Source: Scleroderma bovista
Lineage: Eukaryota > Basidiomycota > Agaricomycetes > Boletales > Sclerodermataceae
Assembly (NCBI GenBank): GCA_037178675.1
Contig: JAYMGJ010000324.1
Coordinates: forward strand, 1 to 64,000
Direction of reading: 5' to 3'
Length of the DNA: 64,000 nucleotides
The notes below the pieces were generated by a model that was not told the DNA's origin, made no database searches, and was given only the letters and a program-made list of their open reading frames with translations. How positions within the stretch are numbered: the stretch's first letter is position 1; the number at the start of each line of letters is the position of its first letter. A program made the translations under genes and the position numbers. Below, piece by piece: positions 13,293 to 56,989 of the stretch.

Positions 13293-13861
13293 CTAAAGTA
13301 TAGTGCATGTGTTCTAGCGCCGCTGAAGCGCAACCATGGGCTCCCTTGACGAGCTCTCTTCTGGGAAAGAACGAGAGAGGGTTCTTCTTCCTAATAGCAC
13401 TATAAAGTGGGGGGAATAACTGTCATGGTGCTGGGGGACGTCGTCTGAAAGTAGGGAAGCGGATAGAGTATTGAATTCGGCGCATCCAGGGAAGTGAGAC
13501 GAACGACAGAGGAAGATGGACATGGCAAGTATCTGGGAGGAAGGGACCATAGGCTGAGGGCTCAGGGGACACAGAGATGACCAGAGAAGACTTCTCAAGC
13601 TTGACAATAGACCTAAGATGACCAAAGTACGTCCTTGACGCAGGACTGACGAGGAGAACGCGCTGACCGAGAACGAGAGGGACTGAGGGAGCAGGCTGGG
13701 AAGATATGTGCCAGGCAATGCACGGGAACTCTGGGAGAGGCTGTCCTAAAAGCAGGACATAGTGGAGATCTGCAGCAATAGTGGAGAAATGATCCAGAGA
13801 AAATACGGACTCCATAGTGAGCGATGAAGTGAATGTCTGGATTGCGGGGGGAATCACATAG
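13293..13861. other. Unassigned flank of element A
   Basis: Minus-strand frames are open here (for example 13,423-13,857) but match nothing I know. With the 30,562-30,897 flank it should form one continuous pre-insertion sequence if element A is excised. Confidence 0.3.
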
Positions 13862-13931
13862 TTCAGTCACAAACCCCTGCAAAAGTGGGTCATCGGACGT
13901 GTACAAATGCCTGCAAAGGTGGGTCTAGCCG
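13862..13931 (+). repeat. Element A left terminal inverted repeat
   Basis: Begins TTCAGTCAC and contains the 51-base block at 13,881-13,931 that recurs exactly in reverse complement at 30,492-30,542. Confidence 0.9.
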
Positions 13932-15475
13932 ACGCCGGCCGACATCCGCACAACTGGGACAACCGATAATGGTAAGGTAGGGTTGGGCCGGGATGTGTAA
14001 CAATGCACATCTCAGACAGGCCGGGGCAACGGTTATAGGGGAAGACAATGTAGGCATGGGTCAGGCCGCGGGTTGCAGGAAGGCAAAGCTGGAACAGGCC
14101 GACGCAGGTATTGTATGGCGGAGTGTGCCATAAGCATGGGTCAGGCCGGGGTGGTTGGACATGTATAGATGGGACAGGCCGGTGTGAGGTTGTATAGTCA
14201 AACAATGTAAAGCTGGGTAAGGCCGCGCTGTGGACAACTGCACGAAGGGGACCGGCCGCCGCAAGTGTTGAACGATTGAGCAATGTAGAGGGCAGTCAGG
14301 CCGAACTATGAAGAAATGCAGAAGTAGGTCAAGCCGGCACAAGAGAAATGTAGGGATTGGTCAGGCCGGCGCATGTGTTGAATGATCAAACAATGTAAGG
14401 CAAGATCAGGCCGTCATATGCAGAAATGTACACATGGGACCGGCCGGTGCGAGGGCTGTATAGTCAAACAACGTACAGCGGGGTCAGGCCGGCAGAAATG
14501 TTGTATGGTAGGAAAACGTAAAGATGGGTTGGGCCGTATTGTGAAGAACTGCAACGATGGGACAGGCCGGTGTAGTTGGCATATGGTTGACCGCAGTGGT
14601 GGTGGGTCAGGCCGCGATGCAGAGACATGCAGAGGTTGGTCAGGCCGGCAGAAATGTTGTCTGGTAGGAAAACGTAAAGATGGGTTAGGCCGTATTGTGA
14701 AGAACTGCAAGGATGGGTCAGGCCGGCACAAGTCTTGTTTGGTCGAAAAATGTAAATGTGGGTCAGGCCGGAGGAAGTGTTGTATGGTTGAACAACGTAG
14801 GGATTGGTCAGGCCGGCGGATGGGTTTCATGGTCAAATAACGTAAGGCTGGATCAGGCCGGCATATGCAGAAATGCGGGACAGGCCGGTGCCAGCATTGT
14901 ATAGTGGACCAATGTAAGGCTGGGTCAGGCCGGCGAAATGTTGTATGATCGAACAATGGAAATGTAGGTTGGGCCGTGATGTGAAGAACTGAAAGGATAG
15001 CAGCGGCCGGCACAAGTACTGTCAGGCCGGCAAAAGGGTTGTATGGTCGAACAACGTAGGGATTGGTCAGGCCGGCGGATGGGTTGCGTGGTCAAGCGAC
15101 GTAAGGCAGGGTCCGGCCGCCATTTGCAGAAATGCAAAGGTGGGACAGGCCGGCGCCAGTGTTGCATGGCGGAACAACATAGAACTGTGTCAGGCCGACA
15201 GAAATGTTGGATGGTCGAAAGATGTAAAGGTGGGTTAGGCCGTAATATACATAACTGCACTGATGGGACAGGCCGGTGTAATTGGCATATGGTTGACCAC
15301 AGTAGCAGGGGGTCAGGCCGCGATGCAGAGACATGCAGAGGTGGGACAGGCCGGCCAAACTGCTGAATTTTAGAACAACGTAGGGATGGGACGGGCCGGG
15401 ACTTGATGACATGCACAGGTGGGACAGGCCGTGCGATGAAGAAGTGCAGAGGTGGGTCAGGCCGGTGCAGTGACA
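13932..15475 (+). repeat. Element A left satellite, GGCCG boxes
   Basis: Tandem units each carry a GGGTCAGGCCGGC-like box. Spacing between boxes is mostly 33 or 45 bp; for example boxes at 14,532, 14,565, 14,610, 14,643, 14,688, 14,721 and 14,766 alternate exactly, giving a 78-bp dimer, while from 14,766 onward 45-bp steps repeat. Spacers drift but the GGCCG core persists. Open frames across it are by-products of spacings divisible by three. Confidence 0.9.
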
Positions 15476-15623
15476 GGCTCCATTTGGGCAGAAGGCAGAA
15501 CTATGTTCGGCCAGGGACAGCATTGTATGGTCCAATGACTGTAAGACAGGAAACTATCTTGCAAAGGTTCATTGTATTTCCACAAATGACACCACATTTA
15601 TTACAATTGTACAGACCAGTCAC

Positions 15624-16260
15624 CTATGCTCTGTCCCTTTGGCTGCGCCCAATACCTAGATGACATTCCCTAATATGCCTTGCAATGTTATTCCATACAA
15701 TAGACTTGCCACAGCCAAGCCAGGGACAGGCAGCTTTCTCACTCATCTTGTACAGCATACCATGAACCTTAAGATGGTTCCGGATGTCTGCAGAGTCTGC
15801 TTGAAGGGGTATGGGACATCCAGGGGTGATGTTGCATTGGTAGGATGCAGGGGGGATAGGGTTGGCTTGCAGAAAGCAAAGGTTAGTATGTATCCACTAC
15901 TGAAACTGAGTAACACATACAGGCCTCTGCCTCTGGAATGGTCACAAGTACAGGGTACTCAGGGGCAGGTGTGGGAGGATGGGGGTTTGTAAAAGGTGGG
16001 TCATTGACCAAGATAGCTGACAGTGCATTAGCATTCATTACATATCTGACTGCAGCAACACATACCAGGGTCATACACAGGCTCAGTGGCAACCATATCA
16101 TCAGGGAAGACAAACTGGGAAAGTTGCCCATGCAAACCAGATGATTCATGAAAATAATCATCTAAGAATGTGAAAAGGATATCAATGAATGAATGAAACA
16201 ATACCAACCTAGGTTAAAGTCAATGGAGTCAGGCAAGGATCCATATTCAAAGCTGGCCAT
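15624..16260 (-). CDS. C2H2 zinc-finger protein of element A
   Basis: A minus-strand gene with small introns starts at ATG 16,258-16,260 (MASFEYGSLPDSIDFN). It continues through DYFHESSGLHGQLSQFVFPD and a proline-rich linker (PPFTNPHPPTPAPEYP), then two fingers: one reading YQCN-x-GC...HLKVH and one reading CPWLGC...ARHIRECH. A TAG at 15,624-15,626 ends the frame; just beyond it a further finger-like stretch (YNCNKCG) can be read. The pattern resembles short Agaricomycete zinc-finger proteins with CxWxxC-type fingers. It sits between the KDZ transposase, on the same strand, and the left satellite, so a role in binding the satellite is an attractive but untested guess. Exon joins were inferred from GT-AG sites by eye. 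Confidence 0.5.
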
Positions 16261-16287
16261 GGTGAATGGAGTGAAGAAAGGGAGAAT

Positions 16288-18791
16288 TCACGTGCCAGTA
16301 GCCAGCTGAAGGTATTTATATTGCTTCCCCTCTACCAACCAAGCCACTGATCCATCCCTGCCATTGACAGATAGGCCCGACTCCGTCAACTGCAGTCTCA
16401 TTTCAGCCAAGGTAGGTGCTGAAAGGATGGACAGATAAGTCAACTTTTCCCATGGTCGAGACAAGAACTGGCGGCTAACCTTTTTCCATTTTGAGTTTGT
16501 AAATATCCAGGGCATCACCCCTTTGGGATGCTGCATCATCAGCTGCTCTCTGCCACTCTTCCACTTTGTTTGGATCCAAGGAAGCTGTAAGCTCTTCAAA
16601 AGGGCCTCTGGTCAAATTTACACCGTCACAAGCTGCTTGATATTTCTTGCATAGAGATTTGACTGCAGAATCAAGGAATTAGTTCCTGCAAATTAAAAGA
16701 CAGAGAAAAATAAACCTATCCCAACCAGTTTTTTCCAGTTTGAGTCTCTCATATGATCATCATATACCTCCTGTCTATGGGCCAGGCTCATGGATCGGGC
16801 CATAGGAGAGACCTTGTTAAATGGGGCCCAGAGGGTCTCCAAAATTTCACCATCAATATGACCAGCTCCCTGCATGAACATGAGACTGAACCGTGCAAAA
16901 CAATCCAACTTATGGGCACTGAGATGGAATTTGCCAACTGCTGGGACAATGTCCATGTCATCGGGGATCTGAAGGGCTGGACATGCTTCTACCCTCCGAG
17001 CAAACTTCACATACCACTGGCAAGCCACGTCATAAATAATGAGAGCTTTAGTGATTCCTGCGGAGTTATATGAAAGTGCTTGACAGATGGAGTAATCAAT
17101 ATTTTTTTGCCTAAGTTCCGGTACATCAGTATAGTTGTCTTCTGATATATAAAGGATTTTGACGCACTGCTCTCCTTTATAAAAATCCACTACAGAATGG
17201 GGCACAAAACAGCCATGCCTCGCACAGGCAGTGGCCCCTATGCCAGTGGCGCGGAGATTAGACCGATTTACATTTGCTTGATTTACAGCACGGTGGTTTT
17301 GACAAGATGATTTCTGTTTGACCCATCAAGATGAAATGGTGTTGTCCAGGTATCCAAAATACGCACTTCTTTGGTCTCATGGGCTGATGATACATGGTTC
17401 TGATAAGGGCCATCTTCAACCATATACCCTAGTCCATCTGCCAAGGCAATGTCGCATTCTGGCCTCCTCATCTTCATGTGCTGAGCTGTAAAGTTTCCAT
17501 CTACCACATATCGCACAGCCACAGTATCCCTTGAATAATAATCAATGCGTCAAGCCTTTTCCAAAATATAACAAAGAACCAACTCAGTATAGACATCCTT
17601 CCAGTCACCTGGCAAGTTAATTCCTGATTGGGGGCAGGCAGGGCAAAATACAGCCAACTCCCCATGTTTAGGATCCCTTTCTGTATCGTGACCAAAGCCA
17701 GCCCTTTTCCTGTTGGAGAGATCTCTCCACATCCGAGAGACCCTCAGCAATTCCCGATAACGATCCTAAATAAAACCATGTAGCATAGAAGGAAAGTTTG
17801 TAGTTGAAAGACTTACTGGAAGGGAGTCTGGAAAGGCGTTATTTGAGAAACGGCAGATCTTTTGATAGAAACTCCAGGCGGAAGTTTTGCATTCCAGAGC
17901 ATCAATGAGGAAATGATCCAGGACGTCGAAGGTGAATCCAGTCTGGGGCCTAATGACAGTAGATGGGAATATACGAGACCGAAGCAGCTGGAGGTGCCGG
18001 TCTTCCAGACTTGCATCATTGCACCTACACCACCTCAGACGGTGTACAAATATTCCAGTAGAGTGAACAACAGTGAATTTATCACAGAACCAGTCCCCCC
18101 CATACTCCGACATATTGTTGGAGCACGGAGCTCCATTATGACCTAGATTAAAGACATAGCCAAGATCACGGAGGGTGATATTATCATAAAATCGTCCGGT
18201 CCATTGTTGAATGCGGTGAAAGGGATTACGGATGTGAGACGTGACAGCACAGGGCCCACACCACATATAACCGGTTTGACAAGAAAGGCATCGGATATTA
18301 GCAGTAACCTGGTGGCAAACTTGACATTCCTCGGTCAAAGCAGGATGTTCGCACTCCAAGATTATCGAAAGATACCGAGCTCGCCAGGGAATCCATTCCG
18401 ACAAAAAGTCATTCTGGGTCTTTTACTAGATAAGAAAATCAATGGGACTGAATTAAAAGATAGTCTTGACCTTGGTTTTCCGCCTCGCAGATGCAAGGAA
18501 ATCAGCAGGGTCTTGCTCATCTATCAGTTGAGAAACCTCGTTGAGAAGGTGGCTACCCTCAGCAGCCCCTCTTGGTGATTTTATCCTTTTTCTTGCAGGA
18601 GTCTCATCTTCTTCAGTAGAAGAAGCTCGATAGTACTGCCAGGCGGGAACCTCTTCATAGGTTATTTTTCCCCTTCTAGTTCGGACTGGGGTATGGGTTA
18701 CAATGCCCGCATGCCCAGACCTGCGACTGGAGCCACCAGATCCATGGATTCTGGCTCTGTTTCTTTTTTCCTTACGAGGTACTGGAGACAT
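16288..18791 (-). CDS. KDZ-family transposase, CxC2 type, shortened C-terminus
   Basis: Multi-exon. The N-terminal exon (MSPVPRKEKRNRARIHG) is basic. The next, from about 18,410, carries the CxC2-type cluster CQVC...CLSC...CGPC...H with NPFHRIQQWTGRFYDNITLR, typical of KDZ transposases. A second Cys pair reads FCPACPQSGINLP. Catalytic acidic residues are visible: Asp in VVDGNFTAQHMKMRRPE near 17,510, Asp in IIYDVACQWY near 17,030, and Glu in GHIDGEILETLWAPFN near 16,860. The frame ends at 16,288 soon after NGRDGSVAWLVEGKQYKYLQ. The element B homologue continues for over 200 residues beyond the equivalent point, so this copy lacks most of the C-terminal helical region, by truncation or by an exon I could not find. 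A neighbouring TET/JBP gene on the same strand is a known KDZ association. Confidence 0.85.
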
Positions 18792-18884
18792 GATTGTCTG
18801 GATTGACAATCTACCAGAGCGAACTAAGTTTCTTTGCCCTAGATCCCGTCATCATACCGAGTAAAATTTCAACACAGCAATAAG

Positions 18885-19076
18885 TAACGGCTATCACTAC
18901 CCTATCTGGCCTAACTGAAATAAGTAGCTGCCATCACCTTTATGCAATCACACCGATCAATAAGTAACACCCCTGCTACCCTATCTGGCCTAACTGAAAT
19001 AAGTAGCTGTCATCACCTTTACGCAATCGGATCAATAAGTAACGGCTATCACTACCCACCATTAAGTAACAACTGA
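18885..19076. repeat. Short tandem repeat between KDZ and TET/JBP genes
   Basis: Two and a half copies of a roughly 78-bp unit with CCTATCTGGCCTAACTGAAA, ATAAGTAGCTG, CATCACCTTTA and ATAAGTAAC. It separates the 5' end of the transposase gene from the 3' end of the TET/JBP gene, so it may be the transposase promoter region. Confidence 0.7.
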
Positions 19077-19078
19077 AC

Positions 19079-20313
19079 TTACTTCCCAGAACCGAAGTTT
19101 GCCCACCAGCCCATCTGAGAAGGCAATGAGGGACATGGCACATCCATCCTGTCATGCAGAAGGTCCTTCATGTAGTGAGCAATTATGGCCCTCTCCCCCC
19201 CTCCCCAAGCTGGCACTGCATGTTCCAATACCTTCCCAGTCAGGAAAATTAGTGTTCCCGGTTGGTACGTAAAACATGCGCCCAGGTCTGTCACTTGGAA
19301 ATTGGCTTGATGCCCCTCGCCTAAACTAACCAGGAGATCATAAAAGGAAAGGGCGCCGCCAGCATCCCTGTGGGGAGGTGTGATCCGGTTGACAATAAGA
19401 TCCATACCAGAATAAGCCGAAGTCCAATTGTAAGGCTTGTCAGACGAATTGTCATTAAGGATCGCATTTGCCTCTAAGCCAGCCTGGAGGAGATCCGGAT
19501 GGACAATGCCCAAGATAGCATTTGCGAACCGCTCAAAGAGTTCTACCTTCTGCAACCATCGTCGAACCTTTTGCGACTTGAGTGAAATGGTTGGCAAAAT
19601 CGGATCCACCAGACGCTAACGCAGCAAGTTAACATTTTCTCAATGGAAGTCCATATTGATTCATCAAACTTACTTTATGCCCCACCATAAATGTCCCAGG
19701 GGCTATAGATAGCACGCCTGAACCGAAATTCTTCTGATTAGGAAGGAAGTTACGGAATCGCCAAGAGCGAGTTTTGAATGAATCTGCAGATTTGTTGACT
19801 AAATTTGACTTCAAGTCTTTCACGGCGTTGTTGAGTTTCGCCTGCAGACAGTCCGCAATCAAGATATTCAACATAAGTAGTAAATTAGGCGCAACTCACC
19901 ACAAAGTCATCCCGAAGTATGTTGGGGAGATACCATAGTAGAATCTTCCCATGTTTGTCCACTACGGTAGCTGGTTTATCGATGACGCCAAGCTTGGCCC
20001 TCTCAAAAAAATTTTCCAGTTGAGGATGGCGGGTAGACTTTGAAGCTCCACCCTTGACAGTCTGCGCAAATCTATCGGAGTCCCAGTTCACCACCACTAG
20101 ACCTCTAATAAATTTTTTTTCCATGGAAACGGGAAATTCCTCACAAGGGTTAAGAAAGGCGGCCGCAATTGTTGCGGCACTGAGGCCCAACTGTTGCTCC
20201 GGAAGAGTCTCCGACCACTTTCCCGAATTTGGGATGTCATATAGGCTTGACAAGTCGTTTTGGGCCCTCATTCTAGCGATGTCAGCAAGGCCGAAAACGC
20301 TGCCTGAAGACAT
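19079..20313 (-). CDS. TET/JBP-family 2OG-Fe(II) dioxygenase (element A)
   Basis: Exons run from MSSGSVFGLADIARMRAQ through WYLPNILRDDF, a middle exon (SWRFRNFLPNQKNFGSG), and the catalytic exon starting RLVDPILPTISL. Iron ligands are seen in NRITPPHRDAGG (His-x-Asp near 19,370) and VLEHAVP (distal His near 19,215); the 2-oxoglutarate Arg fits GGERAIIAHYMKD. The order NRxTPxHRD, YDLLVSLG, TDLGACFTYQPGTLIFLTGK is that of fungal TET/JBP proteins, which oxidise 5-methylcytosine. All ligands are intact. An ATG upstream at 20,443 opens another frame (MSSEEEIRSSIFSYLTKILD) that ends close to a GTATGT donor and could be a 5' exon. Same strand as the KDZ transposase, 290 bp upstream of it. Confidence 0.85.
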
Positions 20314-20443
20314 ACCTGGGTTTCTGTAATTTTGGGGCGGATATATGGGTCCCTTGAACCAGGCAGGTGTCCTTTACTGCATCATCCAGGATTTTAGTGA
20401 GGTAAGAAAAGATAGAGCTGCGGATTTCCTCTTCAGAGGACAT

Positions 20444-22931
20444 GGTGGAATGGAGAAAATTTTCCTTGGCAACCAGGTTGCATTTCCGTCTCGTGAGAAC
20501 GGCCTCAAAATCAAACCATCCTAAATGCAGTAAGCCTTTATTCGCATCAAAGTCTAAATCCGATTTGGATTTGGATTTGCTTCTGATGAGAAAGCATCAA
20601 ACTCTAACTCTGATTTGGTTACGCGGTCAATCAGGCACAAAGCTTGAAGCCCGCACAAGCCGCTACGGTATTACATACGCAGATACGACCGCGCAGTGCG
20701 ATAGCAATATAGACTACATCCTAAGACCATTGTACGACGAAACTATTCGCGATGCTAGCGGGGGGACTTCGCAGAGAAAGTATTGGCTATTGGAGATATA
20801 TATATACCGCTACAAGCAAACGCTTGCGCTAAGATGCGTTTCCCTGGGGCCGTAGGAATGTAATGTATTGGGCTAACCACTGTACTATATAGCGAATATT
20901 TGCGGGACAACTACGTAAGGTATCTTGTTGGAGTATCTTGTTGGGTATCCGCATTGGGGTGCTTCGATGATTTGCGATAGACTGGTGGGTTCAATGGTGA
21001 CGGACGTATCTCAGCGTAAGTCCTATAAATGAGGCGTTGTTGAATAGGAGGTACTTCGGGCGCGCAGGGTTGTTTCTTTTTGAGCCGTTGTTGGTGTTGA
21101 GGCGAGGAGATTAGTTGATATTCGTCCGTACTTACGGAACTCGGAGCAAGTGATACAGCCATCAAATATTGATGATAGCGCAGGCTGCAAAAGGTATCGC
21201 TACCTCTCCGATAATCCAGGCGACAGACCGTGACAACCCTCATTGGGTACTGTTGCTCACCGGGACTCTCCCCTATCTTCTAACTCAGCGCAAGCTCTTA
21301 GTCAAATCACACGATCACGTGACCTGGAATGGCCTGACAAATTGATATTGCGACACCCAAGTCTAGAGCTCAAATTTCCGAGTGAAGTACTACTAAATAG
21401 GTAGTCTAAACACAATGCTCTACCAAAATAAAGTGGGAGTCAGGTTGTCAAGAGGGGGCCCTCCACTTGGCAAACTGGCTCCCAAGGAGAAATCTACTAG
21501 TATCGAAAGCAGCCGAATACGCTAATTGGCAAATGTACGTGGCGGTATATCAATCAGCAGACGTATATTAGCATAGAACAAACCCTAACCTTGATACTAG
21601 GCCCGGAACTCCTAGGCAAAGGGTCCGTGCGGCAGTGTGAATGCTGAGGGATTGGTGAGTCGAATGCAAAGTTTCATACGGGTGATTTACTTACTCAGGG
21701 TACGCGCAGGAAATACTTGTAAGGTAGAGACGGGGGCAAATGGCTAGCGACCTGCAGGATGCGGAGACAGAGTGTGATTAGTATTTGCAAACAAAAAGAG
21801 AGCGCCTTACCCGCCGTCCTTGGGATACGCTGACAGACAATCGTCAGTATTTGTAAATAAAGAAAGAAAAGGTTCCTTACCTGCAAAAGCAGGATGGCGA
21901 GGAATGCGAGCGCACTCGCAGATCACTGCTGCTAATAAGAAGCCCCCCAGAACCAAACGTGGAAAGCGACGGGAGTGCAAGCGCACTCACAGGTCGCTAC
22001 CGCTAACGCGAATCCCCCTGAACCAACCGCAGACGGCGACAGGAGTGCAAACGCACCCACAGATCACTGCCGCTAACGTGAAGCCCCCTGAACCAATCGC
22101 GGACAGCGACAGGAGTGCAAACGCACCCACAGATCGCTACCGCTAACGTGAAATCCCCCTGAACCAATCGCGGACGGCGACAGGAGTGCAAACGCACCCA
22201 CAGATCACTGCCGCTAACGTGAAGCCCCCTGAACCAATCGCGGACAGCGACAGGAGTGCAAACGCACCCACAGATCGCTACCGCTAACGTGAAATCCCCC
22301 TGAACCAATCGCGGACGGCGACAGGAGTGCAAACGCACCCACAGATCGCTGCCGCGAACATGAAGCCCCCTGAACCAAACGTGGACAATGACGGGAGTGC
22401 AAGCGCACTCACAGATCACTGTCACTCGCGTGAAGCCCCAAAACAAAAAATATCTGGAGTTGAAAACGTCAGCTCAAGGTAAAGTTAGCGCATACATACG
22501 ACTGTAAGATCAGAGACGTCCACCGATGGCAAATCCAACTGGTTGTATCTTAAGGAGGTGGCTGATAGGGCGTGTTCGGGAGATATAGCCCGTAAGCCCT
22601 ACATGAAACGTCAGCACAAATACGCGTTGGATAAAGCTGACCTTCGTACCACCCGCGATCTTTTTCATTAGACAGCCTGCAGTGCTGTCTAATAAAAAAG
22701 AAACAGCGGGAGCTGGCGTGAATCGTCCGTTAGCTAGCTAAACGATCCGTTGTTGAAATGAACGCGCGTTGTCATTGAGCTGTGAGTAGATTAGTCGTAC
22801 GAACTGTTCTGAAAACGGTCGAACGTATCGATAAATGATGAGACTAGCGGCTGAATGCGAAAGGTTGAGGTGGGCGAGAAATCGAGAAGATGGCGGTTAA
22901 AAGAAAAGTCGGAGCGTGGAAAAGGAACGCT
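20444..22931. promoter_or_regulatory. Long divergent intergenic region of element A
   Basis: About 2.5 kb separates the TET/JBP gene (leftward) from the H3-tail gene (rightward). It holds the 70/71-bp repeat array at 21,900-22,440 and otherwise no gene I can support; a plus frame at 20,442-20,855 has no recognisable content. CpG density rises sharply relative to the KDZ/TET half. Confidence 0.4.
21900..22440 (+). repeat. 70/71-bp alternating tandem array
   Basis: Seven to eight units share GACAGGAGTGCAAACGCACC, with unit starts near 21,971, 22,041, 22,111, 22,182, 22,252, 22,323 and 22,393. Successive units alternate ATCACTGCCGC with ATCGCTACCGC and AAGCCCCCTG with AAATCCCCCTG, so the true period is a 141-bp dimer. 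The unit contains a short dyad (GTGCAAACGCAC). It stands between divergent genes. Confidence 0.9.
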
Positions 22932-22937
22932 TATAAA
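22932..22937 (+). promoter_or_regulatory. Candidate TATA box for the H3-tail gene
   Basis: TATAAA lies 160 bp upstream of the ATG at 23,098; an inverted CCAAT (ATTGG) follows at about 22,975. Position is plausible for a fungal promoter but untested. Confidence 0.35.
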
Positions 22938-23097
22938 CGCGGAATATTTGGTCATGTTTATGTGATTGGTCGTTGGGGAGCTTGCGAAAATCAACAAGGT
23001 CGAATTTGCGCCTGTTTGGTTTTCACGTGATCGATTTCGGGTCTGTTCTACTTTTGCGACCCGCAGTCCTGTCGTACTTACTTGTTATCTCCTCCCC

Positions 23098-24731
23098 ATG
23101 GCTCGCACGAAGCAAACAGCCAAGAAGAGCTCAGGTGGCAAGGCCCCGCGTGCTGAGATCACATCGCCTCGCCGCCAAATATGTGCGCAGCAAGCAAAGG
23201 CTCAGCAAATCAAGGAGTCGATTAAGAACTCGGCCCGTGGCAAAGCCCCAACCATCGTTATCCCTCCAATGAAACGGGCTCCCGCTACAACCCTACAACT
23301 TTCAGGACCAATGGTAATAGATTATGCTACATTTGACGCGCGTCTAACGTATATTAGTTTTGTTTCCTATGCCAGGACGGCGGATTCCTGTACAAGTGCA
23401 ACGACTGCCCTCGCGCTATGTGTACAAGATGTATACGGGTCCCAGAAACACACCGGCAGGTGGTAAACGAAGATTCTGTCCACTTCCGGTGCGTATCGTG
23501 TCATTTGCTGGTCGGTCAACGTGCCAAGCAATACGGACCATATATTGTGAGTATGAGTTTTCCCCCAACCTTCGAGGACATTGACCGGTATCAAACTCCG
23601 CAGGGATTTACGAGGAGCGGACATCAGATCCTGCCGGACTTTCTACAGGTATCGGGAAGGTTCGAATTAGCGACCTGCGGACGCATTCTCGCTCCCCGGA
23701 CGCTCTTCATCCACTTCTACTTGGCGTCGATCGTATCTACGTTCCATGCAGGAATAATCCATCAAAGCATGGCGGACTACTTTCCCAACGGCGGTCTGGA
23801 CGTCATCGACATACCGTTCGAGTTTGGTACAGCGGAAGCGACGGCGGAGTACGCTCTCCGTGCCGAAAGGTTGATGCAGGAACTCAAAACGGAGTATAAT
23901 CGCGTTGTCTTGATTCTCACTGACCATAGTGACGAGGACACCGGGGATTTATTCATCGGTCCGGATGAATCAGGCGTTGTAACTGCTGCTCCTGTTGATA
24001 GCGTGAGTGATTAAACGTATATATTTTTCCTTCGTTGACGCTGACTTACGTACAGTTCCTTCGTGAACTCCTTACACCATTCCAGCAGGTCGTCCGCGGA
24101 AGTATGATGTATATCGCTGCCTGCGGTTCCGTTGTGAACAACGAGGAGAGCTTTAATAGGATGCGCAGCACCCTAACCGAGTAAGTATTTTCGGTCGTCC
24201 GATATCCTCCTAGCCTACCCTATTTATTCCAGATTTCACGTATCTAACGCTCTGGCATTTGATGCCCCCCGTCTACAAACCGTCAATATCGCGGAAGCGT
24301 TGATGCGAGTCACCAAGTCGGTCGTGATTCATGGCTTCGACTTTACCCATGCTCTGGAGCATGTTCTGAAGGAGTCCGCGCACCTTGGAATGCACACTGG
24401 CGTTGTGCATTTCTCTTTAGGTGATCAGGGAGACGCGAACGTTTTGGAAGTCGTCAAATATGTTTGGGCGCATCGCGACTACCAGCCTTGGGGCGTGGAG
24501 CTGCCAATGCAGTGTCCCCAGTGTGGAGCAGTTCAGAAATGGGCATCTGTGCAAACCCGGGATGGTGGGTATATGTACGAGTGTGTGTATCCGAGATGTG
24601 GGTATGACGGCAACGCCAGGCGGGCCTGGCCGCATACGATGACTGTGGAACGTCCCAAGGGGGCTACTTTGCTCAAATCGAACGGTGGCCAAGGTGGATG
24701 GATGAGGGCTAGCGTGTGCGAACTTCCTTAG
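23098..24731 (+). CDS. Histone H3-tail-like protein with PHD-like finger
   Basis: Five exons (23,098-23,313; 23,376-23,546; 23,604-24,002; 24,056-24,180; 24,233-24,731) join in frame through GT-AG introns of 52-62 bp into a 469-residue product with no stops. After the initiator Met, residues 1-17 match the canonical H3 tail at 15 of 17 positions (Arg8 to Lys, Thr11 to Ser), keeping the Lys4, Lys9, Ser10 and Lys14 equivalents. A second partial echo (KNSARGKAP) follows. No histone fold exists. Residues about 73-115 form a PHD-like zinc finger: GGFLYKCNDC, CTRC, FRCVSC. The C-terminal 340 residues contain DHSDEDTGD (His237) and MMYIAACGS (Cys285), then a CPQC...CVYPRC zinc pair. The His/Cys arrangement recalls clan CD (caspase-like) peptidases; that is a weak inference. 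Codon and CpG use differ from the KDZ/TET half. Context: cargo of element A. Confidence 0.8.
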
Positions 24732-25127
24732 TTACTCAAGCTTGGTTACTTAGTTTTCACTTAATCTACAAACGTGGTGCCAGGTGTGATTATCGAATGA
24801 CGAGTTTACGGTTCCCGAACAGATTAGACCGTACGTAACTTTGATACTGGCCGGTCTCGGAGCCATCCGATGCTGTCGCGCGATAGCTGAAACTTGGCTG
24901 GATTTAGTTGCTTTATCTGTATACGTTGTGCGAGCGAGCTTGATAACTAGATCGATTCTATGATTCCCTAACGGATTTGACCATATGTAACTTCGATACT
25001 GGCAGACAGTTGTAAATACTAGGTGAGCCAATCGCAAAATCGGAGCTACTTGATGCTATCACGTGATGGTTCAAATTTGATTCAGGGTTTGTCTCTCGTC
25101 GTTGATTTTCGATCATACTCTTCTCAA
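24732..25127. promoter_or_regulatory. Intergenic with a duplicated block
   Basis: Between the H3-tail gene and the next gene, two diverged copies of a roughly 150-bp block (starting near 24,810 and 24,960) share GTAACTT, GATACTGGC, GGAGC and a GATGCT phrase. This is probably the promoter of the following gene. Confidence 0.4.
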
Positions 25128-28027
25128 ATGGCCTGCTGGACTGTCGTGTTTGCAAAGATCCTCGCGGATCATCGAGCTCAGTATATCGCCCAACGGGGCG
25201 ACGCCAAGGCTCGGTCGCAGATCCTGCGCGATTGTCGGGATCAAATCTTGAAAACTCCCCAGGCCAATCACCTTATGCTGCCAGACAGCATTCGCGCAGT
25301 GAGTAACTAAAAATATTAAATCCACTGGCTAGTTTATTACTTACTCGGCTTCCAGGGGATCAGGAAGGAATTCATCAAACGTCTTTCTGATTCGGATCGC
25401 GAAGATGAAGAGGCCGCCATGGAAGCTTTGGAGACGAGGAACAATCGCACCAGGATTTCTGCCGAGGAGCGTGAGGCAGCCGCTCGGCCCCAGAAAGCTG
25501 GCGAATACAAGAGAGAATGGGATGCCTTCAGAGCGGCTGGTCGACTTTTCAAGGACGAACTGGACGCTCTCGACAAGTCTTCCAGGGACCAGAAGGATAA
25601 GTCCACTTTCGGGAAGAGGACCAAAACTGCCCATGAATGGTTTGATGGGCTGTCGAAGGAGAAGAAGAGGGAAGCTGAGAAAGTTGCCGTCAAGTGGAAT
25701 CAGGAGGGGGCACCAAAGCAGCAACAGGTGGTGTGAGCGTTTTTTCATTCATCCAGTCTTCATTTTCACGCATCTATATTCTAGCTATCGCAAAAAGAAC
25801 CTCAAAAAAGTGACAAACGAATTCTTGGGAGTGCTTAGACGTACGATGGGGGTCCACGCCGTCATGTTGGCGGGTTACGAGAAACATGCGGGCATGGCGA
25901 CCTCTATGTACGTTGATTTCGGTTTACTTACAAGATAACCTTCGCACTCATCGCCTGTAGCTTCGAAACGGATCCCCCCGAATCTCAGTCAAAGGCGTTC
26001 TCGACCCATTCGAGCGAGGCCAAGAAATGGGCGACGGAAGGCGCCGATCTTATTGCAGAATATCTGTTGCATCGTGGTACGTCATATTAGGTCCAAATGC
26101 TTCTCTACTCATACAACTTAAACAGAATCTGATGAGAGCGGGGGGTCGTCCGAGGAGGACGACGATGAAACAATTCCTGAAGTCCTGGTGGATCGATCGG
26201 GTAATCCGAGGCTTCCAAGTCGACTCGGCTTGAAGCTGAAATCGCAGCAGCTTTTGGTGAGGGAGATATTCAAGAAGGCATATGGTAAGGTCTCCCTGAT
26301 TAACGCGTGCTCGCTCCGATTGATTGATACCAATTACCCAGCGAAATTCACCAGATCTTCCAGGGCCTTGGTGCCTTGGTTGCTACTAACCAAGAATCCA
26401 GAAGAGTACATCGACGACTCCTGCTACCCCGACGGCTTTCTTATCCGCGACCCTTCCAAACTCACAAAATCGAACGTCGACAAACTCTGGCGCCACTGGG
26501 AACAGAGAGAAAAGGATAACGAGGTGGTGCTGCGTTTCATTGGTGCTAAACCCGATGATATGCCGGCCCCGTCCAACGAAAAGCCCAAGCGCCGAGTACG
26601 CAAGAGAGCATATGTCGAGATTGATCGCGATTCCTCGGACTATGGTGATGACGACGATGACTACGGCGGAAACAAGAGCGAAGATGAAGATGAAGATGAC
26701 GAGGGCAGTGACGACGGCGACAACGGAACTCGTCGTAGTCCTAGGCGTCCTGGCGGTAGTTCGACTGCTACGAAACGCAACGCTGGTCCTCCGAGCGGAT
26801 CCACCGCTCAAAAGTCCTCGCATGCGAAAGGTACAGTTGGGTCTTCGAGCGGCAGTAAGGCTCAACCTCTGCCAAGGCTTGTCAAGAAGCCTTCCGCCGT
26901 TGAACCTTCGAGCCCAGCCGCTCATAAAGACGATCGCGGCACGTTCCTTCGCGGTCTCTCGACTGATCCCCGATATGTTGCAATGTTGGAGAAGATGTAT
27001 CTCCTTCCACCTTTTGTATGAATTATTGGCATTGGTCTGTTGTGTTCTTTACTAACACCAACCGCAGGAACCGTCTGAGGAGCCACGACCATCGCTTCCG
27101 CGATGGGCCAGCTGGTCCTGGCAGCAAACATATCTGCCCGAGGACATTCACAAGTCGGAAGATTCTTTCCAGGCGGCGCTTACAGAGCTGAAAAGCTATC
27201 CGTGGAAATCACGCAACTACGGCACCGCGGTAGTCTTGGGACTGGGCCTTCTGATTCGCGACTGCTGGAGTGCCCAGGAGATGGAGCAACCCGAAGATGG
27301 GGAGCAAAGAGCGGCCCCCGAGTTTTTATATTCGTCATTGCTTGGAGTCCGGCAGGTGGAAAGAGTGTTTGCGGAGGTGGATGGCATTTGTTCACGGCTA
27401 GATCAGGTGATACTGGCTGAACCAGCTGTAGGTGGAGAAAGTGTGGATGAGGAGGCAAGAAAGAGGAAGGAAGAGGAGGAAATGAGACATGCCCAGGTGG
27501 AAAAGAGGAGACAAGAGGAGGAGCAAACACGACAGGATGAGGAGAGACAAAGACGTGAGGAAGAACAGAGGCAGGAGGAGGAAAAGAGACAGGAGGAAGA
27601 GCGACAGGAGGAAGAGCGACGGAGGCAGGAGGAAGAGGAAGAGCGACGGAGGCAGGAGGAAGAGGAAGAGCGACGGAGGCAGGAGGAAGAGGAAGAGCGA
27701 CGGAGGCAGGAGGAAGAACGAGAGAGGCAGGAGGAACAGGAGAAGAAACGAAAGGACGAAGAGGAAAAACGGGAAGCTACGAAGACGGTGGATGAAGGCT
27801 CCAAGCAAGGGGAGGCCGAAACGGCGAAGGAGAAAAAAAAGGGGAAAAAAAGAAAGGCGCGTGAACTGTCTTCCGTCCCATCCACCTCCAACAGTAGCGA
27901 GCGCGATGAACTGGAATCAGAGGGCCGGCCTGGACCGTCAAAGCGAAAGAAGACAGCTGTGTCAAAGAAGACCAGGTCCTCCAACCGCGTCCGTAAGGTT
28001 GCGAGGAAACTCCGCGGCTCGTTGTAG
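25128..28027 (+). CDS. KDZ-element accessory protein 1 (element A)
   Basis: Function unknown. Exons start MACWTVVFAKILADHRAQYI; the second (25,356 on) reads KTAHEWFDGLSKEKKREAEK, then KKNLKKVTNEFLGVLRRTMG, an acidic Ser/Asp segment, a domain reading RALVPWLLLTKNPEEYIDD, an acidic-basic linker, the exon reading PRWASWSWQQTYLPEDIHKS, a long Glu/Arg/Gln coiled coil built on about 27-bp repeats near 27,610-27,720, and a basic tail ending VRKVARKLRGSL. The blocks WFDGL...AEKVAVKWN, then VTNEFLGVLRRTMGVHAVML, then VPW-x-x-YI recur in the same order in the element B gene at 44,249, which supports a conserved element-borne family. The basic tail suggests nuclear or DNA-associated work. Intron joins were placed by eye. 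Confidence 0.65.
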
Positions 28028-28299
28028 GTCATCTTTCCATTCTCGCCAGCCTTGTTTTGTGTTCGACTTCACTGGACTATTTACGCACATCGCCATCTTT
28101 ACTTGTAGTTGTACATTGTCAACTACCAATATACTGTATACGGACTACGATCATTACTTGTATGTTACATTTCAACATTGGACGGATTAGTGTGTAGGAT
28201 TCCTGATGACATTTGTCCAAAGGTATGGCCCACACTTCATTCATACAAAAGGTCCCAGCACTGGTCCCATAGCTTGCTTGTTGCGGGATGGGCTGTACT

Positions 28300-30491
28300 A
28301 CATAGCCCGGCTGATCTACAGGTACCATTGTTGCACAGCAAAGCCAGTCCTATGTGTTGGGATAGAACAGGCTGTACTCCATTTGCAATGAGTCACACCT
28401 GCGGCCGATCCAATAAGAGGATGGGGCGGCCAGGACCACATCCGCAATGAATCCCAGTCACGCACACCCCGGCCGGTCCCCAACCTACTAATCACTGATG
28501 TGGATTCGCCCGGCCGATACTATGTACCTGGAGTATGTTACATCCGGGCGGCCTGCGGCATATTTACAATACGCCTTCCACCGGCCGGTCCATGAGCTAC
28601 GATACTCTCAGAATTGTAAAGCCAGGCGGCCCATAGCATATCTGCAATCATTCGTCATGCCGGCCGGTCCTACATTTACATAGACAAAAACTTTTGAAGA
28701 TTTTTTGCCCAAGCGGCCTACATTATATATGCAATAGCGCGTGGGCCGGCCGATAGCATACCTACAGGACTGTCAAATATATGAAGTCAGGCGGCCTGTA
28801 ACATCTTTACCATGTTCCTCATGCCGGCCGCTCCAGCCTCTGCATGACCAACAATCAATTCACTCCTGCCGGCCCTTGCCATGATTGCTGCACCTTCCAC
28901 TGCCGGCCGGGCCAACATCCAGATTGGTTGGAAGATCTTTTGCCCAAGCGGCCTACATTAGGTATGCAATATCACTTGCGCCCGGCCGATACCATACCTA
29001 CATGACTCTCAAACATGTGAAGTAAGGCGGCCTGTAACATCTTTACAATGTCCCTCAGGCCGGCCGCCCCTCTACCCCTACATGACCATCAGTCAATTCA
29101 CCCTTCCCGGCCCTTACCATGATTGCAGCACTTTCTACCTCCGGCCGGGCCCCCATCCACGTCGGTTGGAAGATCTTGGGCTGAAGCGGCCTACATTATA
29201 TATGCGATAGCACCTGGGCCCGGCCGACACCCTACCTACATGACTCTCAAAATTGTGAAGTCAGGCGGCCTGTACCGTCGTTACAATGTCCCTCAAGCCG
29301 GCCGGCCATACATCTACATGACCAACATTCAATTCACCCTCCCCGGCCCTTACCATGGGTGCGGCATATTCCACTACCGGCCGGGCCACCATTCACGTTG
29401 GTTGGAAGATTGTGCGCCGAAGCGGCGTACATCATATATGCAATAGCACCTGGGCCCGGCCGATACCATACCTACATGGCTCTCAAAATTGTGAATTCAG
29501 GCGGCCGGTAACGTCTTTACAATATTCCTCCTACTGGCCGGCCCTACACTTACATGGCCCAAAATCAATTCATTCTCACCGGCCTTTACGAGGATTACAG
29601 CAGTTTCCTCCTCCGGCCGGTCCCATAACCACATTTGTTGTAAAGATTTCTGCCTATGCGGCCTACGTATGCAATAGCACGTGGGCCGGCCGATACCATA
29701 TCTCCATTACTCTCAACATTGGGAAGCCAGGCCTGTACCATATTTACACTTCTCCATATCCGCGGCCGGTACCTTAACTATGTTACCTGGTAGATTTTCA
29801 CACTGGCGGCCCCTACCATGTTTACAATATCTACCTCCTCCGGCCGATTCATCATCTCATATGTTGCAACATTCTTGCCTGAGGCGGCCTGTACCATATT
29901 GACCATGTGACTATCATTCGGCCGGACCAATAATCATATTCCCGTCAAGATTACACATAGACGGCCCTCCCAAGTTTACAATATCTACTTCCCCCGGCCC
30001 ATACCATACCCGCACGTGATGTCGTATCCGGCCGATCCAATAGCTACAATACCTATTGTACTTACCCCTCTCACGGCCTGTACCATCTCTACGTCCTTCC
30101 ACTTCCTCGGCCGGTGCGATGGCTACATCCGTCAGAGGTTTTGATTATGAGGCGGCCCTTCCCTTATTTACCATATTGATTCACTCGGCCGAACCCATAA
30201 TCACATTTCTCTCACATCCGACATTCAACCGGCCTGTACTACATATACAATGCATCAATATGTAGGCCGGTACCATACCTACGTCAGGTGTGATATCGCC
30301 AATCCAACCGGCCCTTACTCCATGTGCAGCTTTCTTAGGTCCACGGCCGACCCTCTATCTACAATCATCCATGCATTCAGTCTGTACCATATTTACAATA
30401 TCTTGCTCCATATTTTGATATGCAGGCCGCACCTGTATTTGCATAGTCTGATCTCGCCGGCCGTTGCTATGCTGCGTACGCCGGCCGGCAC
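28300..30491 (-). repeat. Element A right satellite, GGCCGG boxes
   Basis: Tandem CCGGCCGG- and GCGGCC-containing units. A higher-order repeat of about 236 bp is marked by AAGCGGCCTACATTA at 28,711, 28,946, 29,184 and a diverged copy at 29,420. Spacers are degenerate, boxes are kept. With the left satellite it forms inverted subterminal arrays. Confidence 0.9.
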
Positions 30492-30561
30492 CGGCTAGAC
30501 CCACCTTTGCAGGCATTTGTACACGTCCGATGACCCACTTTTACGAGGGTCCGTGACTGAA
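30492..30561 (-). repeat. Element A right terminal inverted repeat
   Basis: Reverse complement of the left end. It closes with GTGACTGAA, after which similarity to the left end stops. Confidence 0.9.
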
Positions 30562-30897
30562 TCACCTGGAAAAATCATTTCTTCTCTTTCTCCTTCGTTT
30601 CTCCATCAATTCTTCGGCTTCTTTGATCGTTCTGGTATGGGAGTTGGACTGCAGACGTGTGCATTCCTTTCTCATACCACAATTGACGTTATTCCTTCAG
30701 TTTCTTCTGCTTCTTGGTGGTTCTCGTGCGATAGATGACTGTCTGCATTGGCATTCATCTCTCGCATCAGGATAGTCGTCTTGTGCGATAGATGGCTACG
30801 ATGAGGGTCCGTCGTGCTTATCCTTCGCATAAGGATCATTCGATATAGGCGTTATCTTCCATGTTCACTGTACCAAACCTGTTTGGTGCGTGACACC
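30562..30897. other. Right flank of element A, unassigned
   Basis: No recognisable gene. It includes two copies of GTGCGATAGATG (near 30,728 and 30,785). It separates the element from the probable RecQ-like tail. Confidence 0.3.
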
Positions 30898-35739: not shown

Positions 35740-36510
35740 GCTGGAATGGCATATGCCAGATGCCAGGTTGGCATGGGACGGCATATGCCTGGTTGGAATC
35801 GGACGGCATATACCTGGTCGGAATGGAGTGGCATATGGGGGGTCAGCATAGGACGGCATGGGCCGGGTTGGAATGGGTCACCATGTGCTAGGTCTACATG
35901 GGACGGCATATGCCGGGTTTGAATTGGATGGCATATGCCATGTGGGGATGGGTAGGCATGGGAGGGCATCCGTCAGTACAAACCAGGTGGCAGGGGACAG
36001 CATATACCAGGTTGGAATGGGTCCGGATGTGTCAGGTCTATATGGGACAGTATATGCCAGGTTGGCACGGGACAGCATGGGTCAGTACATGCCAGGCCGG
36101 AATGGGTTGGTTCATGCCAGGCGGGCATGGGACAGCATATACCAGGTTGGAATGGGTCTGGAAGTGTTAGGTCTAAATGGAACAGCATATGCCAGGTTGG
36201 CACGGGTCAGTACATGCGGGGCCGGCATGGGTCAGCTCATGTCAGGACGGCATGGATCGGTTCATGCCAGGCCGGCAGGGGACAGTATATGCCAGGTTGG
36301 AATGGGTCTGGAAGTGTTAGGTCTAAATGGGACAGCATATGCCAGGTTGGCACGGGTCAGTACATGCGGGGCCGGCATGGATCGGTTCATGCCAGGCCGG
36401 CAGGGGTCAGTACATGCGGGGCCGGCATGGGATGGCACATGCCAGGTTGGAATGAGTCCGGATGTGCTATGTCTAGATGGGACAGCATATGCCAGGTTGG
36501 AGTGGAAGGA
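35740..36510 (+). repeat. 25-bp satellite of element B
   Basis: Units such as ACGGCATATGCCTGGTTGG repeat about every 25 bp (ACGGCATAT, GGTTGGAATGGG phrases). Many units carry the palindrome CATATG and a terminal CGG. Larger duplications occur around 36,125-36,480. Confidence 0.9.
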
Positions 36511-36639
36511 CAGGACATAGGTGTCCCATATAGTATAACACATCGTAACATAGGCGGACCAATGGGGTGTGGGCTCCATGGTGTTCCATACCCACACAGG
36601 TTGGCCCATTAGGATGAGTACCATACCCTATGGACCACC

Positions 36640-37860
36640 AACAATAGCCCAGATAGCAGTGTGCCATATGGTATGGGACACTGCACTATGGGCCAACCGG
36701 TGGGGTATGGAACACCATGGAATGGGCTTGCATGGTGTTCCATACCCCACCGGTTGGCCTATGGCATAGTGTCCCGTGCCCTATCGGTTAGCCTGTAGCA
36801 CAGGATCCCATAGTATATGGCACACCACTATGTAGGCTGGCCGGCATGGCACGGCGCACTCCGGTCTGGGCCGCCCTACTATGTAGGAACACTATGGAAT
36901 GGGCTTCCATGGTGTCCCATGCCATGTCGGTCAGCCCATACCAGTGTCCAGTGCCCTATCGGGTAGCCGTGGGACAGGATCCCATAGTATATGGCACACC
37001 ACTCTGTAGGCTGGCCGGCATGGCACGGCACACTCCGGTCTGGGCCACCCCACTATGTAGGAACACTATGGAATGGGCTTCCATGGTGTCCCATGCCATG
37101 TTGGTCAGCCCATACCACAGTGTCCCGTGCCCTATCGGTTAGCCCGTAGCACAGGATCCCATAGTGTATATGGAACACCACTATGTAGGCTGGCCGGCAT
37201 GGCACGGCACGCTCCAGCCTGGGCCGTCCGACTATGTAGGAACACTATGGAATGGGCTTCCAGGGTGTTCCATGCCATGTCGGTCAGCCCATACCACAGT
37301 GTCCCATGCCCTATCGGGTAGCCCGTAACACAGGATCCCATACTATATGGCACACCACCATGTAGGCTGACCGGCATGGCACGGCACACTCCAGTCTGGG
37401 CTGCCCTACTATGTAGGAACACTATGGAATGGGCTTCCAAGGTGTCCCATGCCATGTCGGTCAGCCCATACCACAGTGTCCCATGCCCTATCAGGTAGCC
37501 CGTAACACAGGATCCCATAGTATATGGCACACCACCATGTAGGCTGACCGGCATGGCACAGCACACTCCGGTCTGGGCTGCCCGGTGATGTAGGAACACT
37601 ATGGAATGGGCTTCCAGGGTGTTCCATGCTATGCCGGTCAGCCCATGCCATAGTGTCCCGTGCCCTACCGGCGAGCCAGTGCCACGGGATTCCATACTAT
37701 ATGGCACACCACCATGTAGGCCGACCGGCATGGCACGGTCAACCCATGTGCTAGTGTGCCACACTAACTATCCAATAATAGCTATGGTGGGCAGCCTATA
37801 AGGTACAGTAGACAAAGGGTAGGCTGACCGGTATGGCCCGGGACACTCCGGGCTGGGCCA
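36640..37860 (+). repeat. About 177-bp satellite of element B
   Basis: Six copies with GTAGGCTGGCCGGCATGGCA (or GACCGG variants) near 36,837, 37,011, 37,190, 37,368, 37,544 and 37,721, a spacing of 174-179 bp. A degenerate seventh lies near 37,825. Confidence 0.9.
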
Positions 37861-38019: not shown

Positions 38020-39335
38020 TCACATCAACGTATTCCGGACCATATCGACTGTCATCCACTCCGTTGTTGGAACCCCCAGCCAGTTATGAATGTTATCTCG
38101 CATGTAATAGGCAAAACAACACCTATTACCATCAACCTTGTTAACTCCATGTCGAAGGAGGCGGCCCGAAAAGGCCACAACGGTCCCGGGGCTATATTCC
38201 AATTGGACACCAAGAGTGGGAATATCTAAATAACAGTCCTGGTAATCCCCAACACTAACCAAAAGATCATACCAGTTCGCCCTGGAGTGTGGGTCCCGGT
38301 GAAATGGTGTCGCTCGGTTTGCAATGACCGACACGTTGGTGTAGACTGTGGCCCAGTCCTCAAGAGCATCATCCATGTCTTCATCATTCTCCACTGCCCA
38401 TGCACTGAGCTTCTCCATTCCATCCAGGCCAGCATTATACAATGCCGGGTGCATGATGGAAAGAGCAGCGGACAGGATGCCAGATGGGTAGGACATTTGT
38501 GATGCCCAAGTTGAACCGGACTGTGTTTTAAGGGCTGCTGAGACAGAGGGGGTGTCGTTCCGTGTCTACATGCTGATGAGATAAGGGGATAATAATCGCA
38601 GACAACTCACGGAATGACCAAGTTGGTGCATGGCAGGGGCAAACTCCAAACATCCGGCAAGAGACTCTGCTTTGAAATAGTCCGGCTTTGTCCGCCAGGT
38701 TCGTCCAACAATGCTTCTTGGTAAAAGGTCTGGAATCACATCAAGTGAATCCAACATATGTTTCTATCAACTTGGATAAATGCCATTCCATTACAACCGG
38801 ACAGAAAATTACCTGGACATTGTCGGCCAAGGCTCCTGGGAGGTACCACAAGGCAATTGTATTGCCCTCACCAAGTATAATAGTAGGTCTATCAATTACT
38901 GGGGGGCAGCCTTCATGCGGGGTAAGGGCGGTCGGGTGCCTGGCCAGAAAGCTTGCCTCCCGATCTACTGCCGCTCCGGTTTCCTTCTGGCCGAGATCAT
39001 CGGCAAGTCTCCTGAACTCAATTCCAGAGGGGACTGGAATGATATACCTTCACCTGGAATGTACAAGATGAAGGCAAAAACTCACTCTGATGCTGATATG
39101 CTTGTGCCAGTATAGCAACCATTTGATGCATTGCAACAGTGTGATTGACCGGCATGTCAAGGGAAGGTACCGGCTGAGGTGAATCGGGGCCAGGAAAGAC
39201 CAAGAAGCAGAACCGTTGGCGCATGTATTCAGCGAATCTTCTGGAAAGCCGGTAGTTGGTGGGTATATCGGACTGAACATCCATTCCTTGGACTGGACTG
39301 GTGGGTGCAGAATTGGACAAACAGGAATTGGACAT
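38020..39335 (-). CDS. TET/JBP-family 2OG-Fe(II) dioxygenase (element B)
   Basis: The gene probably starts at ATG 39,333-39,335 (MSNSCLSNSAPTSPVQGMDV) and runs through exons containing PTIILGEGNTIALWYLPGAL (homologous to KHGKILLWYLPNIL of element A), KPDYFKAESLAGCLEF, and a catalytic exon to 38,020. Iron ligands are His-x-Asp in NRATPFHRDPHS and His in LLRHGVNK; the 2-oxoglutarate Arg fits DGNRCCFAYYMRD. Between them are YDLLVSVGD, TLGVQLEYSPGTVVAFSG. The order equals the element A copy, but sequence identity is only moderate, so the two elements are old relatives rather than recent duplicates. Predicted role: oxidation of 5-methylcytosine. It lies next to the left satellites, a natural target if it acts in cis. 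Confidence 0.8.
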
Positions 39336-39502
39336 TCAAATGAAAATATACTTTGGTTATTGCACAGTGAATCTGCATAAGATAGGAAGCCACATATTTT
39401 TACACAATGGATCATTTGTGCCCAGCATCGATTTCAAACTCCACAATGCCATTGACGGACAATGCCACCGGGCACACCGTGAGAATGTGGGTCTGGCTGA
39501 TG

Positions 39503-39509
39503 TATATAA
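39503..39509 (+). promoter_or_regulatory. Candidate TATA box
   Basis: TATATAA lies 42 bp upstream of the ATG at 39,545. Confidence 0.4.
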
Positions 39510-39544
39510 GCCTCACCAGCAGGGTCCGGTGGCAATTAATCACC

Positions 39545-40327: not shown

Positions 40328-40650
40328 CCTGGGATAGTGGCCGGTACATATATTTATTTCAATGTAACTTTGTATGGGAATATGGTGAAGCTGTGGTGCC
40401 ATTTCATTCAGCAGAGTGAATGCAATCGCTCATACATTTGACACTGTCTGGCTGCATAACAAGCTAATCCGGCATTGCCTGCTGCTGCACCTGCTGATCT
40501 CCGGCCGGACCAAAATTCAACCCGTGCAGAGAAAAACCCCTGTGTCCAATCGGCCTCACAGGTGAGTAATTGGACCTCCTCTTGCCACCTGTCCCGGAGT
40601 GCCTTTGTTCTTAACCAATGAACACGGTAAACTAGATAAAGTAGTGAGTG

Positions 40651-56985: not shown

Positions 56986-56989
56986 CTAC

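Follow-up and report, generated by a model that had tools for sequence, protein, structure and literature searches.

Why should a gene carried by a fungal transposon begin with the tail of histone H3? The question is raised by a 64,000-nucleotide stretch of Scleroderma bovista DNA (contig JAYMGJ010000324.1, positions 1 to 64,000 of the forward strand; hereafter the window), in which a KDZ transposon bearing a TET/JBP gene also carries, at 23098-24731 on the plus strand, a gene for a protein of 475 aa that combines an H3-like N-terminus with a predicted protease. A first-pass annotation of this locus, made from the sequence, had described the product as a near copy of H3 residues 1-17 followed by a PHD-like finger instead of a histone fold.

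The H3-like tail and its conservation

The translated frame at 23098-23313 (+), which reads MARTKQTAKKSSGGKAPRAEIT... (MARTKQTAKKSSGGKAPRAEITSP...), was compared with H3 residues 1-17. Recounting the residues after the Met gives 15 identities out of 17, the two mismatches being R8K and T11S, and the equivalents of K4, K9, S10 and K14 are all present, so that the description as a near copy holds. The mimic itself (MARTKQTAKKSSGGKAPR; 23098-23151, +) is delimited by translation, H3 comparison and family alignment, and the likeness to H3 stops after residue 17. The three host H3 genes in which the first exon was recognized with its Met encode ARTKQTARKTTGG, where position 10 is Thr; they have TARKTTGG, and several family tails have TAKKTTGG. 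The exact DNA pattern for MARTKQTA occurs at 12 sites in the 51.8-Mb genome, namely the three host H3 genes (C119, C385 and C477) and nine family members, of which three (C1, C12 and C193) lie within stretches identical over at least 5.2 kb and may represent one duplicated place. The reversed pattern, which served as a chance control, has 0 sites genome-wide; the H3 match of the window tail therefore exceeds chance. The predicted structure model has no histone fold after the tail, as the annotation had said. A finger and a caspase-type core stand in its place, and the protein is therefore not a histone. A divergent H3 gene (L040; G000 C270, from about 227958) has the tail KHTARKSTGGRPPR and an H3-like stretch 64% identical, and is possibly a centromeric H3.

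Three protein searches returned at least 38 database relatives (P0002-P0039). Two of them scored only the 7993 candidates sharing most words, and the family may therefore be larger; the queries included the tail, scoring ran over the whole protein, and tail-less fragments were recovered as well. The first-pass annotation had held that relatives all lacking the tail would point to a chance fusion. Instead, an H3-like tail is found in all 25 relatives that reach the N-terminal region, with 6 to 15 of 17 matches (from P0028 to P0027 among the 20 scored relatives; P0029-31, P0033 and P0034 have the same tail as P0027). It begins at the annotated first residue in 16 relatives, at an internal Met that follows a predicted extension in 8 (P0026, P0027, P0029-31, P0033, P0034 and P0036), and without Met in P0002. 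The other 13 relatives (P0003, P0013-15 and P0017-25) begin further down and are fragments or shortened models. The hosts belong to the Boletales (Scleroderma, Pisolithus, Suillus, Boletus, Chiua, Tylopilus, Imleria, Melanogaster) and the Agaricales (Amanita, Mycena).

The tail is the best-kept part of the protein. Alignment A3 has 23 sequences, of which P0003, P0015 and P0017 were set aside because their N-terminus is missing. Pairs of the remaining 20 share on average an identity of 0.59 in tail residues 2-18, compared with 0.38 in the finger (from 136 of 190 pairs), 0.35 in the C-terminal part, 0.30 in the core and 0.14 in the linker (from 112 of 190 pairs), and in the 168 pairs with core identity below 40% the tail identity is still 0.58. 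Tails are kept in relatives with as little as 25% identity to the window protein (P0039). Among nine tails of the S. bovista genome, some of them closely related, the pooled proportions of synonymous (pS) and nonsynonymous (pN) codon differences are 0.76 and 0.22, respectively; codons 2-14 differ from those of host H3 with a pS of 0.5-0.9, and the tail is therefore not a recent copy.

Residues were counted in 29 tails, i.e., those of the window, 20 database proteins and 8 further S. bovista loci, leaving out C491 (which repeats the window tail), five repeats of P0027, and 8 Met-less plus 6 decayed loci of the same genome. The best-kept residues are T6 (28), T3 (27), Q5 and G13 (25 each), A7, K9 and A15 (24 each) and R2 (23), followed by G12 and R17 (22 each), A1 (21), K4 and T11 (19 each) and P16 (16), with S10 in 9, K14 in 4 and R8 in 1. 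Position 4 is K in 19, R in 6, A in 3 and L in 1 of these tails, position 8 is K in 20, and position 9, where it is not K, is R in 4 and N in 1. The Ser10 and Lys14 of the window tail are therefore not family features. Out of 34 family loci listed in the S. bovista genome, 15 have a tail with Met and 8 have a Met-less tail or a lost start (C443, C457, C193 left, C1 twice, C12 left, C144 and C15), in a tally that leaves out C112, C815 and C196. In a divergent group (L058, L049, L060 and L057), MARTTCTMKK... upstream of the finger is followed about 25 residues later by a RRSTGGHARR-like stretch; judging from these letters, the tail may be split there, its second part resembling RKSTGGKAPR of H3.

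The finger and the predicted protease core

The gene had been presented as a clean, functional-looking one of five exons. The exons (23098-23313, 23358-23546, 23604-24002, 24056-24180 and 24233-24731) do join without a stop and the gene looks intact, but exon 2 is longer than first drawn: the earlier start, after the AG ending at 23375, was dropped for 23358. The acceptor used is the first AG past a branch-like CTAAC, ending at 23357, and the added FCFLCQ supplies the first CxxC of the finger. This start was preferred because the branch-like site precedes it, the finger is completed and the relatives match (P0005 has FCSLCQDGG at the corresponding place). A read-through of intron 2 (57 nt, no stop) was rejected, since the relatives align across the splice and the intron is therefore spliced out. 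The resulting protein consists of the tail (residues 1-18), a variable linker (19-72), a PHD-type finger (73-121), the core (166-375) and, from about residue 403, a zinc-ribbon-like part whose CPxC...C stretch (24510-24590, +) is recognized from the sequence and the family alignment. No Pfam family scores above cut-off anywhere in the protein.

With the corrected exon 2, the PHD-like finger of the first-pass annotation is complete and has 8 Cys (23358-23504, +). Its nearest sequence relatives are the PHD fingers of AIRE and CHD4 (1xwh, E 0.0019), and PF00628 stays below the Pfam cut-off, with E values of 0.077 and 0.14 in two of five members searched. In common with the AIRE, CHD4 and NSD3 fingers it has the Cys pattern and the C-x2-C-x-DGG-x-L...C-x2-C-PRA core; it differs from them in that the zinc-binding His is replaced by Cys (AFH to AMC), and the best E value is only 0.0019. 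ADD fingers likewise have Cys at this place. In 14 of the 20 tailed alignment rows, C86 and C89, the finger's second Cys pair, are present.

The core (23694-24428, +, with introns 3 and 4 inside) is predicted from the structure model to be a CHAT/caspase-fold cysteine protease of clan CD with a conserved His-Cys pair, a feature absent from the first-pass annotation. The putative catalytic His243 (23925-23927, +) is H in 19 and Y in 3 of 22 ungapped rows, and the putative catalytic Cys291 (24122-24124, +) is invariant in 21 of 21; a catalytic role is predicted for the pair. The modelled fold was compared with that of clan CD proteases such as SAVED-CHAT (8tl0), from which the window protein differs by adding the H3-like tail, the PHD-type finger and the zinc-ribbon-like part. 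No clan CD Pfam family is listed up to E 1 for five family members.

Possible roles of the tail

The reading that we prefer, with a probability of roughly 0.4, is that the tail is a bait: host proteins of H3K9 silencing would be drawn to the protease and be cut or sequestered by it. Removal of the Met, usual before Ala, would leave a free ARTKQTAKK end available to a methyltransferase for H3K9 or to proteins that read methylated K9, and linker plus finger would keep the captured protein close to the protease or to chromatin. The element's TET/JBP enzyme would have methylcytosine as its target, and a single element would then attack both of the marks that silence transposons. K9 and its left neighbours are the contact residues of HP1-type chromodomains and H3K9 writers. 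The bait is favoured because these residues are kept, because residues 1-10 are untied in the model, without confident placement (predicted local distance difference test score, pLDDT, <50), and because the body is protease-like. The first-pass annotation had named the Lys4 or the Lys9 machinery as the target. K9, kept in 24 of 29 tails together with T6 and A7, stands; K4 is looser (19 of 29) and K14 rare (4 of 29), which makes the K9 machinery likelier and led us to disfavour a K4-type mimic as the conserved function. A pre-SET protein is encoded in the host genome, which also contains matches to C5 methylases. The fuller scheme, in which a histone-baited protease destroys heterochromatin writers and readers while the TET of the same element acts on DNA methylation, is rather doubtful.

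Several observations weigh against the bait. R8, which some H3K9 methyltransferases need, is kept in only one of the 29 tails, 20 of them having Lys, which makes it uncertain whether the mimic would be methylated; K9 itself is replaced by Arg in four tails and by Asn in one. G13, A15 and R17 are kept too and residues 11-20 are modelled at a pLDDT of about 82, so that part of the conservation may be structural. In six divergent S. bovista loci (C30, C59, C439, C681, C568 and C294) the tail is decayed, of the MARTTCTMKK or MARTKCTARK type, with a stop in two of them, and none was seen at C7 and C139 within the stretch fetched. A TET match lies within 5 kb of at least 6 of the 34 listed family loci, a lower bound since distances were counted for the best 150 of 159 TET and the best 150 of 317 KDZ candidates; the partnership with TET is therefore not general. 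A search for the HP1 chromo-shadow domain gave no match, and none in the controls either. Finally, the protease fold is a predicted model and the His-Cys pair is putative: Foldseek returned a single match at E <=0.001, with unrelated alpha/beta proteins mixed among the caspases, and the Tyr that replaces His243 in 3 of 22 rows means that some members may be inactive.

The chief rival, which we consider unlikely, is a built-in pseudosubstrate: the protease would target H3 tails, its own tail would fill the active site or be a self-processing site, and the enzyme would be on only at chromatin. A predicted clan CD protease bearing a copy of a possible substrate would follow the logic of a propeptide, basic residues are common at positions 8 and 9 (K8 in 20 and K9 in 24 of 29), and several clan CD peptidases cleave after Arg or Lys. 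Passages of PMC10135481 speak of pseudosubstrate loops in Clr4 and PRC2. However, the model places residues 1-10 with confidence neither in the active site nor elsewhere, and T3, Q5 and T6 are as well kept as the basic pair, beyond the usual needs of a cleavage site. The conservation of Cys291 (21/21) and His243 (19/22) also makes it quite unlikely that the protein is a passive sponge, in which the protease-like body is a mere scaffold and the tail by itself titrates proteins that read or write H3K9 (or K4) or brings them to the element, since a scaffold would need neither residue; the high conservation of the tail and the Tyr at position 243 in three rows are what this explanation has in its favour.

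Alternatively, the PHD-type finger could bind the protein's own tail, within or between chains, to lock or assemble it until real H3 tails release it. The AIRE PHD1, CHD4 and NSD3 fingers, to which the corrected finger is nearest by sequence, read the unmodified H3 N-terminus, and the C86, C89 pair is present in 14 of 20 tailed rows. Such a self-ligand is nonetheless improbable: K4 is not conserved (K in 19, R in 6, A in 3 and L in 1 of 29), the acidic residues that hold R2 and K4 in the AIRE structure are replaced in the window finger, tail residues 1-10 lack a confident placement, and 6 of the 20 tailed rows, e.g., P0010 and P0011, are without that part of the finger, although these may be faulty gene models. 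As for the idea that a piece of a host H3 gene was joined on by chance and has no function, host H3 genes exist and the H3 likeness does end past residue 17. Against it stand the tails in all 25 relatives long enough to cover that part, even at 25% identity, the pS of 0.5-0.9 to host H3 and a pN far below pS among the copies; chance or recent fusion was rejected on this conservation and codon divergence and is scarcely credible. Overall, the earlier interpretation is partly supported, and a decoy or recruitment role is what we infer for the tail.

The carrier transposon, its neighbourhood and related systems

The expansions of KDZ and TET genes were reportedly first described by Iyer et al. 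in 2014. The window element is a KDZ (Kyakuja-like) transposon of 16.7 kb (13855-30568) with the ends CACATAG...TCACCTG (5'-CA..TG-3'), supported by its pair of terminal inverted repeats (TIRs) and by the same termini at the different sites of other copies. The left repeat (13862-13950, +; 89 nt) is 89% complementary to the right one (30473-30561, -). On the minus strand lie a KDZ transposase exon (PF18758, 16696-17325; E 2.1e-37, 129.4 bits vs cut-off 26.6), a CxC2 cysteine cluster associated with KDZ transposases (PF18803, 17769-18422; E 9.9e-28) and a TET/JBP dioxygenase domain (PF12851, 19082-19615; E 1.3e-13, 50.9 bits vs cut-off 34.9). The element thus has the transposase domain and the matching inverted ends by which a KDZ transposon is recognized, and the KDZ-TET/JBP setting of the first-pass annotation is confirmed. 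The left end is CACATAG in all four copies seen (window, C127, C252 and C491), and the right end, read inward, is CAGGTGA in 3 of 3 (window, C127 and C252); four other repeat sites have CAGGTAG. The flanks of the copies diverge farther out than the termini, and shared termini followed by differing flanks set the ends at 13855-30568 in the CA..TG form. No exact target site duplication was found in the three copies with both ends. The H3-tailed gene is identical, introns included, in the window, C74, C127 and C252, so that movement or copying of the element was recent; in C491 the gene has diverged and contains a stop. The copies at C127:108970-129197 and C252:14461-34664 are about 20.2 kb long with both ends kept, and their extra length of about 3.5 kb falls between the left end and the transposase. 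Among the 40 left-repeat sites listed (40 of 112 candidates scored), 34 match at 87-88% and are likely non-autonomous or related elements.

TET+ Kyakuja elements from Boletales have been reported with CA..TG ends and 7-bp duplications, without TIRs (Kojima 2025, PMC12730594). The window element resembles them in its KDZ-type transposase, its TET/JBP gene and its 5'-CA..TG-3' ends, but it has 89-nt inverted repeats set 7 nt in from the ends, and its three copies with both ends show no exact duplication; it is therefore only called Kyakuja-like, within KDZ. In the paper's main text 'histone' occurs 4 times, never about an H3-tailed gene, and neither 'PHD' nor 'mimic' occurs. The window holds a second KDZ and TET/JBP pair at 38023-42648 (-; Tet_JBP 38098-38484, KDZ 41821-42591), and the family search turned up only the one H3-tailed gene on the contig. 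Short tandem or dispersed repeat arrays lie at 13973-15468 and 28563-29732, just inside the element ends, and at 21900-22440, 35740-37827 and 51006-52374. Inverted repeat arms of 141, 79 and 44 nt (92-100%, about 3.3-3.6 kb apart) at 55644-59523 are probably another DNA transposon. Elsewhere, the C271 family copy is followed, about 1 kb downstream, by a Plavaka transposase (PF18759, E 3e-94; L044:6057-7457, -), and some family copies may ride on another transposon type.

A neighbouring plus-strand gene (approximate limits 25128-28187) is kept beside the H3-tailed gene in several copies: close matches adjoin it in C74, C127, C252, C491, C383, C457 and C15, and the two are fused in the predicted proteins P0004, P0011, P0012 and P0026, whose sequences were read. 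The matches found in C32 and C206 stand without a listed family locus next to them. The neighbour has no Pfam family above cut-off (DUF6174 is weak, E 0.0068, and below cut-off), P0011 and P0012 have no Pfam match at 0.01, and P0011 has no sequence relative in the PDB at E 0.1. At a distance of about 3 kb from some further KDZ transposases, e.g., in C145, C270 and C783, there are weak relatives (about 25%), and the gene may be general KDZ cargo. CHAT proteases often adjoin their targets; by analogy, the neighbour could be a partner or substrate of the predicted protease.

Histone mimicry is known from pathogens and host enzymes. The automethylation sites by which G9a and GLP bind HP1 are described as histone mimics (PMC9768651), and a screen for H3K9-like motifs exists (PMC10611923). 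The G9a/GLP mimics described there are likewise short H3K9-like stretches in non-histone proteins; the window family differs from them in having 17 residues at or near the N-terminus, in their conservation across a family associated with transposons, in sitting on a predicted protease and in having R8 mostly replaced by K. Among anti-silencing factors of transposons, PMC12730594 names a Vandal protein that regulates its own silencing and SET methyltransferases in HarbingerS and MuDR. These too are element-borne genes thought to act on host silencing, but the window family would combine a mimic with a predicted protease in place of a modifying enzyme or a sequence-specific regulator. The open-licence literature yielded no transposon-borne histone mimic, no match to the string ARTKQTAKK and nothing on CHAT/caspase-like proteins of Agaricomycetes transposons; the papers listed on histone mimics included work on ADNP/HP1 and DNMT3A and a study of viral infection.

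The family is associated with mobile elements in several species, and its H3 tail is better conserved than its own predicted catalytic core. The natural variants of the tail (K8 in 20 and R9 in 4 of 29) offer a way to learn which H3 residues host writers and readers need, and through the family one could study how fungal transposons with TET genes remain active. Should the bait model be right, mimicry and proteolysis would be the means by which transposons counter histone-based silencing; under the fuller scheme, the element would be the first known to fight both arms of silencing, and its tail the first histone mimic that acts as a trap.
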